DNA of 64,000 nt. It comes from Elusimicrobium sp. Its GTDB lineage: Bacteria > Elusimicrobiota > Elusimicrobia > Elusimicrobiales > Elusimicrobiaceae. A program made the position numbers and the translations under genes. Shown one piece after another: positions 28,913 to 41,684 of the stretch (its first letter is position 1; each line of letters starts with the position of its first letter). Under the pieces are notes generated by a model that saw nothing but the letters and a program-made list of their open reading frames with translations, did no database searches and was not told the origin of the DNA. The DNA lies in assembly GCA_015062115.1 (NCBI GenBank), contig SUVG01000004.1:62001-126000 (forward strand), in the 5' to 3' direction.

Positions 28913-29965
28913 CTAATTAGTTTTCTGGCTTAAATACTCCCCACGAAAACCATACGCATGGGAAACTTCCCTTCCCAAAGAACGAATTAAGTTTTCTGCC
29001 GAGCGGGTGGTATCGTCCGGGGATAGGGTGGTGGCGGTTTTGCCGGGGTAGAGATCGTAACGGGCGCGGTAGCAGGTTTCCGTTAAGTTGGGCATAATTA
29101 CATTGGCTCCGCACCCAAGCGCGAGGGCTCTGCCTTGCGGGTGTAAAGTTTCCATGGCTGTGGTAGCCGGGATATTGATATCCGGCAGTAATAGGCGCAT
29201 CAGGGCCATCATTTTTAAGGAAAGTTCAAAATGACCGTTAGAGGTTTCTTCGGCCAAAGGTGTGTGCGGGTGAGGAATAAACGGGCCGATGCCTGCCATG
29301 TCCACCGGTAAATTTTTGAAGAAGAGTAAATCTTCCGCTAAACTTTCCGTTGTTTGCCCCGGAAGGCCTACCAAGGAACCGGAGCCGACTTCATAGCCTA
29401 ATTCTTTTAGCATATGCAGGCAATTCAGGCGGTTTTCCCAACTCATGCCCGGATCCATTTTTTCGTAGAGGGTTTTGTCGGTCGTTTCAATGCGTAGCAA
29501 GTATCTGTCGGCACCGGCTTGGCGGTATGCCTTATACTCTTCGTAAGTTTTTTCGCCGATGCTTAAGGTGACTGCCATATCCAATTTTTTTATTTCGCGG
29601 ATTACTTCACACAACTTATCGGTATCAAACCAACCGTCTTCTCCCGATTGCAATACCACGGTTTTATAACCGTATTGGGCGGCTCTGTGTGCGGTGTTTA
29701 AGATGTCTTGCGGGGTAAGGCGGTATCTGTCCGCCGCCAGATTGGAACGACGGATACCGCAGTAAAGGCAATCGTTTTTACAATGATTGGAAAATTCTAT
29801 CAGTGCGCGCAGATATACGCCGTTTCCCACAAACTGTTGGCGTACCCGGTCGGCTTTTTCAAAAAGAGGGGTCGGGTCTTGTAGTGATAATAAATCTACC
29901 AATTCTTGTTTTGAAAAAGTTTTTTGTGTTAATAATTTTTCCAATCTTTCGCGCGCGTTCGTCAT
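28913..29965 (-). CDS. hydE: [FeFe]-hydrogenase H-cluster maturase HydE (radical SAM)
   Basis: The start at 29965 gives 350 residues beginning MTNARERLEK; the open frame runs 42 codons further but into the regulatory region. The radical SAM cluster motif is C62-x3-C66-x2-C69 (CKNDCLYC) followed by GIRRSN, typical of HydE rather than BioB. LQSGEDGW and IGEKTYEEY further support HydE. The enzyme helps build the dithiomethylamine bridge of the H-cluster, implying an [FeFe]-hydrogenase elsewhere. hydF and hydG are not adjacent. TATACT ends six bases before the ATG and no ribosome binding site is present. Confidence 0.88.
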   Translation of the reverse strand: MTNARERLEKLLTQKTFSKQELVDLLSLQDPTPLFEKADRVRQQFVGNGVYLRALIEFSNHCKNDCLYCGIRRSNLAADRYRLTPQDILNTAHRAAQYGYKTVVLQSGEDGWFDTDKLCEVIREIKKLDMAVTLSIGEKTYEEYKAYRQAGADRYLLRIETTDKTLYEKMDPGMSWENRLNCLHMLKELGYEVGSGSLVGLPGQTTESLAEDLLFFKNLPVDMAGIGPFIPHPHTPLAEETSNGHFELSLKMMALMRLLLPDINIPATTAMETLHPQGRALALGCGANVIMPNLTETCYRARYDLYPGKTATTLSPDDTTRSAENLIRSLGREVSHAYGFRGEYLSQKTN

Positions 29966-29971
29966 ACACAC

Positions 29972-30005
29972 AGTATAGCAAATTGAAAAATGGGTCAAAA
30001 GACCC
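29972..30005 (-). promoter_or_regulatory. hydE promoter with overlapping GGGTC-TTTT-GACCC inverted repeat
   Basis: On the minus strand an extended -10, TGCTATACT (29980-29972), is preceded by the perfect repeat GGGTCTTTTGACCC (30005-29992) covering the -35 region. The same element recurs at 30061, 30413, 34400 and 35339. An operator or activator site is inferred. Confidence 0.6.
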
Positions 30006-30020
30006 AAAAATCGGTAGGAC

Positions 30021-30044
30021 GGGCCCAACTTTGCAAAGGGGCCC
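30021..30044. repeat. GGGCCC pair flanking a CTTTGCAAAG palindrome
   Basis: GGGCCC (30021-30026) and GGGGCCC (30038-30044) surround CTTTGCAAAG (30029-30038), midway between the divergent hydE and small-protein promoters. Possibly further regulator sites. Confidence 0.45.
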
Positions 30045-30060
30045 AAATTCCGGTGTATTT

Positions 30061-30078
30061 TAGGACTAATGACCCTGT
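30061..30078 (+). promoter_or_regulatory. Fifth copy of the GGNC-TTTT-GACCC element, upstream of the small protein
   Basis: TAGGACTAATGACCCTGT matches the element seen at hydE, 30413, 34400 and 35339 with two changes in the central T tract. The small-protein ATG is 67 bases downstream. Confidence 0.45.
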
Positions 30079-30144
30079 TTTTTCCTCTCATAAAACGATA
30101 AATTAAATGTATAAGAAGGAAAATTTTAATCGGGAGGTGCTGTT

Positions 30145-30315
30145 ATGAACGTAACCATGAACGAAACTTTAACCACGCAGTTAATTAAAAAACAGCGCCT
30201 GGATCGCGAATTTTCGTGGATCAGCCGCGAGTTTGACGATTATCACACCCTGAGCGATTTGGAACTTGATAATGTAGAACGCTATGTGGCTCTGCATTTA
30301 GGATATAGTTTCTAA
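30145..30315 (+). CDS. Small 56-residue protein, unknown
   Basis: An ATG with GGGAGGTG seven bases upstream opens 56 codons ending TAA at 30313. The peptide is soluble, charged and helix-prone (QLIKKQRLDREFSWISREFDDY, then TLSDLELDNVERYVALHLGY). The strong ribosome binding site, the sensible amino-acid mix and the regulator-like element upstream argue for a real gene. It faces away from hydE and shares a control region with it. No family is recognised. A GC-rich hairpin follows. Confidence 0.65.
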   Translation: MNVTMNETLTTQLIKKQRLDREFSWISREFDDYHTLSDLELDNVERYVALHLGYSF

Positions 30316-30378: not shown

Positions 30379-30412
30379 TCTTACTATAGTCCCATTGGGT
30401 AGGGGAAAAATA

Positions 30413-30461
30413 GGGCTTTTGTCCCTTGCGGAAAAAACAGGCTAATTTCTAAAATATATAT
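30413..30461 (+). promoter_or_regulatory. GGGC-TTTT-GTCCC element and promoter of the repeat protein
   Basis: GGGCTTTTGTCCC (30413-30425) abuts TTGCGG (30426-30431), an 18-base spacer and TAAAAT (30450-30455); the ATG is six bases later with no ribosome binding site. Confidence 0.5.
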
Positions 30462-34380: not shown

Positions 34381-34442
34381 AAAGACCTATTGTTTTTTTA
34401 GGTCTTTTGACTCTTGTGCAACGTAAGCATAATTACTATTCT
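34381..34442 (+). promoter_or_regulatory. Promoter and inverted-repeat element upstream of the first secreted paralogue
   Basis: AAAGACCTA (34381-34389) and TAGGTCTTT (34399-34407) form a perfect nine-base inverted repeat. Its right arm runs into TAGGTCTTTTGACTC, the shared element. TTGTGC, 17 bases and TATTCT (34437-34442) make a plausible sigma70 promoter directly downstream. Confidence 0.55.
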
Positions 34443-34475
34443 GTAAAAAGCAGTTATTAAAAAATGGAGAAAAAA

Positions 34476-35219
34476 ATGAAAAAACAAGTTTTGTTGTTCA
34501 GCCTGTTGTTGCCGTTTGCCTTTAGTCCGTCTTGGGCACGGGAAAGCTTAAAAACTGATTCCGCCCAAGCGGCTCGCCTAAAAGATACTATCACCCAAAA
34601 AGCCTATCAGGTGCTTCATGCCAATAAAAGTAAAGACTCTCTTTCCAAAACCCTTGAGCAAGATATCGTGGATACCTTAAAACAAGAATATCCCCAAGCA
34701 GAGGGTATTTTTAATGCGGGTCAAATCTACTATCAATATGTACAAAATGCCTCTTTGCCTAACGAAACTACTGCGGGTTACTTGTTTGCGGTAAAGGAAG
34801 AAAAACAAGTTACTTATTATATGGTATCCACTTATTTGCGCCAATCTTGGAGTAAACCGGTATTGAGTGATTTTAATTTGCTATCCCGGGTAGATGCTGC
34901 GCAGGCCCTTCCTTTGGATATATTAACCGCTAAAATCAAATTGCTTAAATATGAATTGGAAGAACTTTCCGCAGATTCCAACTTGTTAAAAGTTATGTTT
35001 TCGGCGGCAGATATTAACGAAATAAAATCCGTTTTGAAAGTGCATAAAGGGGAAACCTTTGTGGAAGAAGAACAAAACAGACCTGCCTATGAAGGACAAG
35101 TTGAAATTTTGTTAATGAACGGGGAGCACAGAACCCTGCATTTTACTTGTGTGCCCGCCGGAGCCACCGAAGATAAAGAACTTACCTTTGAAAAAGACGA
35201 GTTCCAATTAAAAGCCTAA
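34476..35219 (+). CDS. Secreted protein of unknown function, tandem paralogue 1
   Basis: The start at 34476 (MKKQVLLFS, 247 residues) is chosen because TGGAGA sits eight bases before it; an ATG four codons upstream would bury that site. The signal peptide is cleaved near SWA-RE (residue 21). The mature protein is helix-rich at first, then has TAGYLFAVKEEKQVTYYMVS, LPLDILTAKIKLLKYEL and, near the end, VEILLMNGEHRTLHF. The same order of blocks occurs in the next gene, so the two are probably paralogues. No catalytic motif or known domain is seen. Confidence 0.7.
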   Translation: MKKQVLLFSLLLPFAFSPSWARESLKTDSAQAARLKDTITQKAYQVLHANKSKDSLSKTLEQDIVDTLKQEYPQAEGIFNAGQIYYQYVQNASLPNETTAGYLFAVKEEKQVTYYMVSTYLRQSWSKPVLSDFNLLSRVDAAQALPLDILTAKIKLLKYELEELSADSNLLKVMFSAADINEIKSVLKVHKGETFVEEEQNRPAYEGQVEILLMNGEHRTLHFTCVPAGATEDKELTFEKDEFQLKA

Positions 35220-35287: not shown

Positions 35288-35352
35288 GACCCAGAAACAG
35301 GGCCCTCAAAAAATAGGAAGTTAGGCCCACTAAAAAATGGGCCCTTTGACCC
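35288..35352 (+). promoter_or_regulatory. Cluster of GACCC/GGGCCC sites upstream of the second secreted paralogue
   Basis: GACCC (35288), AGGGCCCT (35299-35306), GGCCC (35324-35328) and GGGCCCTTTGACCC (35339-35352) occur in 65 bases. The last matches the shared element and abuts TTGTGA, a possible -35. An A+T-rich TATATC/TATATA stretch follows before the ATG. Confidence 0.55.
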
Positions 35353-35401: not shown

Positions 35402-36178
35402 ATGAAGAAACTTCTTTCCTTTATCTTAATGGCTTTATTCATGTGGACGGCCGCTTTCCCGGCTTATGCCAATATGAACTCCCTCTACGGAAAGAAATCT
35501 CGTCAATTTGCTAATGCCATTGAAAGAGCGGTCGCCTCAGTCCGTATGGAACTGGGGTCGATTCTTTCTTCTGCCAGTTTGGATATTCCCGAAGAAATAT
35601 TCCCGCAACTTTTACTCTTTTTTTCCGAAGAACACCCGCAAGACAGTATCATCGATAATTTTGGGGAAATTTATAAACAAACCGTTGTTGAAGACCTAGT
35701 CGTTCAATCTAAAATTCACGGTTATTACTTCCGTGTGACGGAGGGAGATACCTATTATTATTACTATGTTCAAATTGTTATAGATCGGGAAGGAAAATTT
35801 ACCCTTCTTCCTGTTGAGTTTTTGAACGAAGAAAAAATTGCAGACGGATTACCCAGCGATGAGTTATTCCAGCACATTATTCGCTTAAAATCTTCCTTGT
35901 CTTTAATTCTCTGTGCGGGAAGTGATGTTTCTTTGCCGAAAAATGCCCTGAAAGCCTTTGCCAAAAAGCTGCCTTTGGGAAGCCTTTTAGAGATATACAG
36001 TGCCACGGTTTTGAAGGAACGCAAAAGTTGGAATAAGTACAGAGAAAGAACTTTGGAAGTAAAAGTTAAATATCGTCTAAGAAACGGTCTTATTGAAGAA
36101 GAATTTTTTAACCTGATTAAGCCCCTCCAAAACAATTATACAAAAGACTATTATTACGAAACCGAATTTGTGTTATAA
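35402..36178 (+). CDS. Secreted protein of unknown function, tandem paralogue 2
   Basis: The 258-residue protein has a signal peptide ending near AYA-NM (residue 24). Blocks that line up with the previous gene are IHGYYFRVTEGDTYYYYYVQ, LPSDELFQHIIRLKSSLSL and VKVKYRLRNGLIEEEFF near the C terminus. Identity is low, so common origin is inferred from size, signal peptide, block order and shared control element. The ribosome binding site is weak (AGAGAG). A terminator follows. Function unknown. Confidence 0.7.
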   Translation: MKKLLSFILMALFMWTAAFPAYANMNSLYGKKSRQFANAIERAVASVRMELGSILSSASLDIPEEIFPQLLLFFSEEHPQDSIIDNFGEIYKQTVVEDLVVQSKIHGYYFRVTEGDTYYYYYVQIVIDREGKFTLLPVEFLNEEKIADGLPSDELFQHIIRLKSSLSLILCAGSDVSLPKNALKAFAKKLPLGSLLEIYSATVLKERKSWNKYRERTLEVKVKYRLRNGLIEEEFFNLIKPLQNNYTKDYYYETEFVL

Positions 36179-40915: not shown

Positions 40916-41684
40916 AGGTTTATGGGCCCTTGTTTTGGCCTGCGGGGTGAGTGCCTGTTCCAATTCGGCCGAACCGACTTTGGTGCCCGAAACCTCGGCC
41001 CAGCCCCAACAAACGATAGCGGAAACCGCACCCGTCAAACAGGAAAAGCCCGTTGCCCCTGCGCCGGAAACAACCCCTGCTCCCGCACCGAAACCGACTG
41101 CCGAAAAAACCAAAGCGGTAAAAACTTTTTCGGCGGAAGAGTTGGCGGAAGAATTGAAAGCCTGGGATAAAAAATTGACTTTCTTGTCCACCTCTTTTGA
41201 ACAATCTACTTCGTATGACGGGGTTCTCGTCAGCCAATCTCAAGGAACTTTATCCTACGATAAAGCAAAAAATTTCTTGCGTTTGGATACATTGGACAAA
41301 CAAGGAGAGGCGGAACAATCGGCCATTACCGATAAAAAAGAAATTATCATTTTAGATAATGCCGGCAACCAAGTAACCACCCTTTCTTGGACGGATTGGC
41401 AAGAAGGCCAACCCAACCAGGCCTTGTACGATTTCGGCAATTATACGGCTTTAGTAAACCGTCATCAGGCTTCCTTAAAAAGCCAAACGGAAGACGAAGC
41501 CGTTTTGCTCTTAACCCCCAAAGCTGGGGAAGAATACAAACTCTATTTAACGCTTGATAAAGCGGACTTTTTTCCGAAAACGATTGCCATTGAGGCCGAC
41601 TTGATGCTCACTCGGGCGGAGTTAAAAAATACCCGTAAAAACCAATCGCTTCCGGCGGATACTTTTGGAGGATTCTTTCAATGA
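40896..41684 (+). CDS. LolA-like lipoprotein (outer-membrane lipoprotein carrier fold)
   Basis: The start at 40896 gives 262 residues with GAGGA upstream; the frame extends 21 codons into ftsK but the signal peptide starts here. Lipobox VSAC (Cys19) implies lipidation, unusual for LolA, which is soluble and periplasmic. A Pro/Ala/Thr/Lys linker (~20-75) leads to the LolA domain (~80-260): FLSTSFEQSTSY, SQGTLSYDKAKNFLRLD, DKKEIIILDN. ftsK-lolA adjacency is common. It may carry or sort lipoproteins from an anchored position, or be a LolB-like receptor; sequence does not decide. Confidence 0.75.
   Translation: MKLSINKGLWALVLACGVSACSNSAEPTLVPETSAQPQQTIAETAPVKQEKPVAPAPETTPAPAPKPTAEKTKAVKTFSAEELAEELKAWDKKLTFLSTSFEQSTSYDGVLVSQSQGTLSYDKAKNFLRLDTLDKQGEAEQSAITDKKEIIILDNAGNQVTTLSWTDWQEGQPNQALYDFGNYTALVNRHQASLKSQTEDEAVLLLTPKAGEEYKLYLTLDKADFFPKTIAIEADLMLTRAELKNTRKNQSLPADTFGGFFQ

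Follow-up and report, generated by a model that had tools for sequence, protein, structure and literature searches.

The interval between hydE and a 56-residue open reading frame (ORF) in the 1.44-Mb genome of a gut Elusimicrobium (29965–30145) is crowded with short palindromes, which raises the question of which of the two genes they serve and which protein reads them. The window analysed is the 64,000-nucleotide stretch of DNA around this locus. An earlier sequence-only reading had regarded the interval as a palindrome-rich control region shared by both genes and bound cooperatively by one protein. Every string it quoted was found in the sequence (Table 1), and GGGTCAAAAGACCC was present as a single copy in the window and in 0 of 100 shuffles. 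Elsewhere in the window, the segment 46001–52000 has a G+C content of 0.33–0.35, versus ~0.45 around it, and is possibly acquired.

Table 1. Features of the locus, further dyad promoters of the window and GerE-domain regulators of the genome
Feature	Position	Strand	Remarks
hydE, [FeFe]-hydrogenase H-cluster radical SAM maturase	28913..29965	-	TIGR03956 equivalog, 371.7 bits vs cut-off 254.6
hydE -10 element TATACT	29972..29977	-	6 nt before ATG; just before start in 11/11 tabulated hydE-adjacent loci
Outermost dyad GGGTC-AAAA-GACCC	29992..30005	.	Covers hydE -35 region; putative fourth dimer site of array
GGGTCAAAAGACCC	29992-30005		String quoted earlier
Half-site AGGAC	30016..30020	+	Array position -46
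GGGCCC	30021-30026		String quoted earlier
CTTTGCAAAG	30029-30038		String quoted earlier
GGGGCCC	30038-30044		String quoted earlier
Half-site GGGCC(C)	30039..30044	+	Array position -23
TAGGACTAATGACCC	30061-30075		String quoted earlier
Promoter-proximal dyad AGGAC-TAAT-GACCC	30062..30075	+	Array position 0; relatives' consensus GGGNCCAATGACCC
Predicted -35 element TGTTTT of small gene	30076..30081	+	Register: 23 nt from dyad edge to -10
Predicted -10 element TAAATT of small gene	30099..30104	+	TANNNT at +23 from dyad
56-aa small protein gene (type A)	30145..30315	+	Two predicted helices
Dyad AGGGC-TTTT-GTCCC	30412..30425	+	-10 TAAAAT (30450-30455); precedes 428-aa exported protein (30462); matrix score 19.5, higher than in any shuffle
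Dyad AGGTC-TTTT-GACTC	34400..34413	+	-10 TATTCT; before paralogue 1 (34464-35219)
Dyad GGGCC-CTTT-GACCC	35339..35352	+	-10 TATCTT; upstream half-sites; before paralogue 2 (35402-36178)
RR1, NarL-family response regulator	G000:C1:36490-37176		PF00072 107 bits; PF00196 65 bits
RR2, second NarL-family regulator	G000:C2:178425-179066		Kept throughout family f1

Architecture and conservation of the array

The palindromes were resolved into a single array of RGGNC half-sites placed every 23–24 bp (at 29992, 30016, 30039 and 30062), in which each end is a full 5-4-5 dyad (RGGNC-N4-GNCCY); four units are present in the window and five in many relatives. The sites noted earlier are real, but they form this one array rather than five independent palindromes. 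GGGCCC at 30021 and CTTTGCAAAG lie out of register, have no counterpart in relatives and were set aside as chance palindromes, a reading that was dismissed for the in-register sites, while AGGAC at 30016–30020 is an array member that had been overlooked. The array of the window itself carries AGGAC at positions 0 and -46 and RGGYC at -23 and -70. The palindrome of DosR/OsdR type, GGGNC-N4-GNCCC, is matched exactly at 29992–30005 and with A for the first G at 30062–30075. A matrix derived from other promoters of the genome and a few from the window itself scored 19.3 at 30005–29992 (minus strand) and 18.9 at 30062 (plus strand), compared with 15.1 for the best of five shuffled windows.

Conservation was assessed in 30 genomes with the small gene, including that of the window. 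Half-sites were present at position 0 in 27 of them, at -23 in 29 (as RGGYC), at -46/-47 in 26, at -69/-70 in 19 and at -93 in 17, and RGGYC occupied on average 3.10 of the four upstream register positions versus 0.026 after shuffling; these genomes are related and not independent events, yet their inter-site DNA has widely diverged. Mean pairwise identity was 0.71 in the site columns versus 0.40 between sites, and the array is kept in ~38 relatives, more strongly than the DNA that separates its units. The sequence-only reading could have foundered on an absence of the small ORF or of the sites from relatives, where both are kept. Its proposal that the dense spacing reflects one cooperatively binding protein appears well supported, in that the sites resemble those of a single dimeric DNA-binding protein bound in tandem.

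The dyad–promoter unit across the genome

The inner dyad abuts the -35 hexamer of the small gene, and its edge lies 23 nt from the predicted -10 element. Because of this spacing, its centre is predicted at about -42.5, a position typical of activators that overlap the -35 element. Other proximal dyads of the form RGGNC-N4-GNCCY likewise run into TTGT/TGTT-like -35 elements. Genome-wide, the dyad pattern gave 37 matches, with consensus RGGYC-N4-GRCCY, versus 4 with a reversed control; since the pattern was devised after viewing promoters of the window and its relatives, the consensus beside the -35 element involves some circularity. This does not apply to the -10 spacing, as the -10 element was kept outside the pattern: of the 37 sites, 20 have TANNNT precisely at offset +23 nt from the dyad, versus 0–3 at any other offset.

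The complete unit occurs ~30 times in the genome, mostly before genes for proteins with signal peptides, and three of the promoters lie within the window beyond that of the small gene (Table 1). The cluster reported before paralogue 2 is genuine, with GACCC at 35288, GGGCCC at 35300 and AGGCCC at 35323 preceding the dyad. A matrix match at 40916, which reads as signal-peptide coding sequence, was taken as chance. Signal-peptide-like N-termini, as called by a simple hydropathy rule, were found in 28 of 33 ORFs downstream of dyads versus 18 of 49 window ORFs, a background that itself includes regulon members and membrane proteins. When 20 regulon ORFs were scanned against Pfam, matches passed the curated cut-off in four (receiver domain, glutaminase-like, M20 peptidase and trypsin-like) and in none of the remaining 16. 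Families f2 and f7 of the class have the unit as well, at unchanged spacing and again mainly in front of genes for exported proteins.

Three further loci were recorded. One regulon gene (L035:294-1445, minus strand) combines a signal-peptide-like N-terminus with a receiver-like domain (PF00072, residues 272–348), which is odd for an exported protein. Another short, cytoplasmic-looking ORF (54 aa; L040:1285-1446, minus strand) lies directly behind a regulon promoter. Finally, a full dyad–promoter unit at L053 ~1500 (minus strand; G000:C4:23270-23287) is followed by ~60 nt and a hairpin, with no ORF; it possibly serves a small RNA or is a site for a divergent gene.

Assignment of the array to the small gene

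The -10 element of hydE lies so close to the start codon that a leaderless mRNA is predicted. The outer dyad is separated from this element by 14–15 nt in 11 of 11 loci and by 10 nt in a second branch, and its centre lies at about -34 relative to hydE here and at about -30 in another branch. The constancy in the 11 loci had raised the idea that a conserved distance reflects a function for hydE, which was dropped on the 10-nt spacing. With 10–15 nt, the dyad covers the -35 region and is not at an activating position, so that the array geometry fits activation of the small gene and not of hydE.

In all 14 genomes in which hydE is located away from the small gene, no dyads were found upstream of hydE, and the small gene faces ppdk (in one, another gene) with the array still in place. 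Because the array stays with the small gene while relocated hydE has no dyad, it belongs to the former, as judged from this comparison of relatives; ownership by hydE is weakened, and a control region specific to hydE is not supported. The proposed link between hydE and the small protein stands in part: two branches of the genus have hydE opposite the array, but elsewhere the array remains with the small gene. An influence of the array on hydE, if any, would most probably be negative or incidental.

Two observations concern the neighbouring genes. In the 14 relatives, the start of hydE directly follows the terminator of the preceding gene, and TATACT or a near match sits just before the ATG, as in a compact leaderless promoter (L195–L208). 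In relatives without hydE at the locus, the array faces ppdk (L017–L031); pyruvate phosphate dikinase is a predicted OsdR target in Streptomyces (SCO0208; PMC5069765), which is probably a coincidence.

The 56-aa protein

Homologues of the small protein (type A) were found in 36 of 61 genomes of the genus, the named carriers being Elusimicrobiaceae and Elusimicrobiales metagenome-assembled genomes, including Candidatus Avelusimicrobium. Searches of Pfam, NCBIfam and PHROG returned no match, and the predicted structure, two helices with a pLDDT of 77 and a pTM of 0.41, had no fold match in the PDB. A type B small protein, present in 9 of 66 genomes, mostly adjoins hydE behind the same kind of array. 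The two types are weakly similar (lowest hmmsearch E-value 7e-6, obtained with a tiny database; hhalign P of 0.0011) and are probably fast-diverging homologues.

Few members of the regulon look cytoplasmic; the type A protein is one of them, and its gene has the longest array of all. A speculative role, to which we attach little weight, is that of a dedicated feedback partner: this fast-evolving, 50–58-aa two-helix protein would be strongly made only with all four or five dimers bound, and would bind RR1 or its kinase to set the output of the exported-protein regulon.

The candidate regulator

Two GerE-domain regulators are encoded in this genome, RR1 and RR2. RR1 consists of a receiver domain and a C-terminal GerE domain, the architecture of the NarL/FixJ family. 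Its recognition helix, KTIKN, aligns with K179-T-V-K182-N183 of DevR/DosR, in which K179, K182 and N183 contact DNA (PMC5999986). This helix is kept in RR1 orthologues (60–91% identical), and RR2 has NTIHVH at the contact positions. As KT[VI]KN is common among NarL-family proteins, the match with DosR is not diagnostic.

In the RR1 operon, a kinase with a Cache-like part and a receiver-kinase precede RR1, and a 387-aa protein that belongs to no Pfam family and a TadE-like gene come after it; most of family f1 keeps this operon, and it is conserved in part across the class. Domains of the adjoining kinases are HisKA, HATPase_c, receiver, HAMP and a sub-threshold Cache domain. RR1 is followed by the 387-aa protein and the TadE-like gene in most of family f1 (L132:1115-4827, minus strand), a neighbourhood that suggests a surface or pilus connection of the system.

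The spread of RR1 across the phylum roughly tracks the motif, which is enriched in families f1, f2 and f7. Nearly all f10 genomes tested have no GerE (LuxR/NarL) protein, and the motif is also absent in f10. In one genome with the motif (G117), the sole GerE protein is an RR1 orthologue; in a single case (G166), RR1 has Asn at the K179 position, RR2 is kept and no strict motif match was found. Against this stand genus g2 and some f2 genomes, which have RR1 with KT(I/V)KN and little or no motif excess, and an f5 genome (G110) in which an RR1 orthologue (64%) is accompanied by no strict motif match. On balance of these comparisons, RR1 is the best candidate for the regulator of array and regulon, most likely with DosR-like recognition.

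Proposed mechanism and rival explanations

We propose that the array is a tandem operator for a dimeric response regulator of the NarL/FixJ family with DosR-like recognition, most likely RR1, and assign this explanation as a whole, RR1 included, a probability of about 0.6. The sites, their register and conservation, the fixed -10 spacing and the genome-wide recurrence come from sequence and comparison; the identity of the regulator, its phosphorylation, cooperativity, the direction of the effect and any effect on hydE are what we infer. Phosphorylated RR1 dimers would bind RGGNC-N4-GNCCY dyads, with the weaker sites at 23–24-bp steps filled cooperatively. The innermost dimer, abutting the -35 element, would recruit RNA polymerase to the small gene, and the outermost would sit on the hydE -35 region, so that hydE would probably be blocked, or else be unaffected, when the small gene is activated. 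RR1 would also turn on the ~30 genes for exported proteins.

The strongest competitor is the same tandem operator bound by another protein, be it RR2, a Crp/Fnr protein or an uncharacterised factor, which we consider a real but minor possibility. The 5-4-5 geometry alone does not name the protein, FNR sites share it, and RR2, too, is kept throughout family f1. However, RR2 differs at the contact positions, and the f7 genomes with the motif (G117, G136 and G140) have only RR1-like GerE proteins. Crp/Fnr, raised on the geometry, was dropped, since Crp-type helix–turn–helix domains are absent in G029 and G015 despite many sites there; in G000 they are sub-threshold. That the dyads co-activate hydE and the small gene as a shared operator, as the sequence-only reading implied, is improbable: hydE does face the array in two branches, with a dyad 10–15 nt from its -10 element, but this spacing is 8–13 nt shorter than in regulon promoters and varies between branches, and relocated hydE is dyad-free in 14 of 14 genomes.

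Still less probable is that the sequence before the -10 element serves an alternative sigma factor as its extended -35 region and is no operator, with the upstream copies as accessory or decayed promoters. The fixed 23-nt spacing to the -10 element in many promoters would suit it, but the site is a dyad with symmetric half-sites that is repeated upstream in a 23-bp register, and the -10 element is an ordinary TANNNT; a sigma-54 promoter was rejected by eye, as the spacing does not fit. The view that the inverted repeats are an RNA terminator or attenuator, or palindromes arising by chance or from repeat elements, is largely refuted and scarcely credible. It draws on one terminator-like prediction at 30006–29991 (minus strand), but the array lies upstream of both predicted starts, and the conserved 23-bp register and the genome-wide association with promoters speak against it; Rfam gave no match at its gathering score.

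Relation to known systems

The best full-length PDB matches to RR1 are the VraR/LiaR-type NarL regulators 7ve6 and 4gvp, and by sequence RR1 resembles VraR more than DevR. VraR regulates cell-wall stress genes; unlike RR1, it has KTVKT, without an equivalent of N183. With the DosR/DevR system of Mycobacterium tuberculosis, the present one shares the GGGNC-N4-GNCCC dyad and, in the candidate RR1, a NarL-family regulator with equivalents of K179, K182 and N183 (PMC5999986). DevR promoters have closely packed boxes, with the proximal box overlapping the -35 element and secondary sites filled cooperatively (PMC3029386); here, too, several boxes are closely packed, the proximal one abutting the -35 element as judged from predicted starts. 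In contrast to DosR, the sites keep strictly to a 23-bp ladder, with up to five units, the RR1-adjacent kinases are of the HisKA type with a marginal Cache domain, no haem-GAF sensor being found, and the targets are exported proteins, mostly without Pfam family, instead of universal stress proteins, alpha-crystallin and nitrate genes. Half-sites and spacer length (4 nt) agree with the consensus of OsdR from Streptomyces coelicolor, AGGGCCGATCGGCCCT (PMC5069765). The OsdR spacer is GATC, whereas TTTT/CAAA is found here, and the OsdR targets are nitrate, universal-stress and other genes in a different phylum.

A search of openly licensed papers found no description of such a regulon. As known from sequence, the system would represent a known kind of site and regulator in new use, namely in a strict 23-bp ladder with as many as five units and for a regulon of exported proteins. 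Very little of gene regulation in uncultured Elusimicrobiota has been explored, and the analysis yields a testable regulator–motif pair in several families of the class, together with ~30 exported proteins of largely unknown function. It suggests that DosR-like DNA recognition may serve a different purpose in a distant phylum, and the evenly spaced ladder, which is better conserved than the DNA separating its sites and stays with a fast-evolving small protein, would provide a natural model of cooperative promoter logic.
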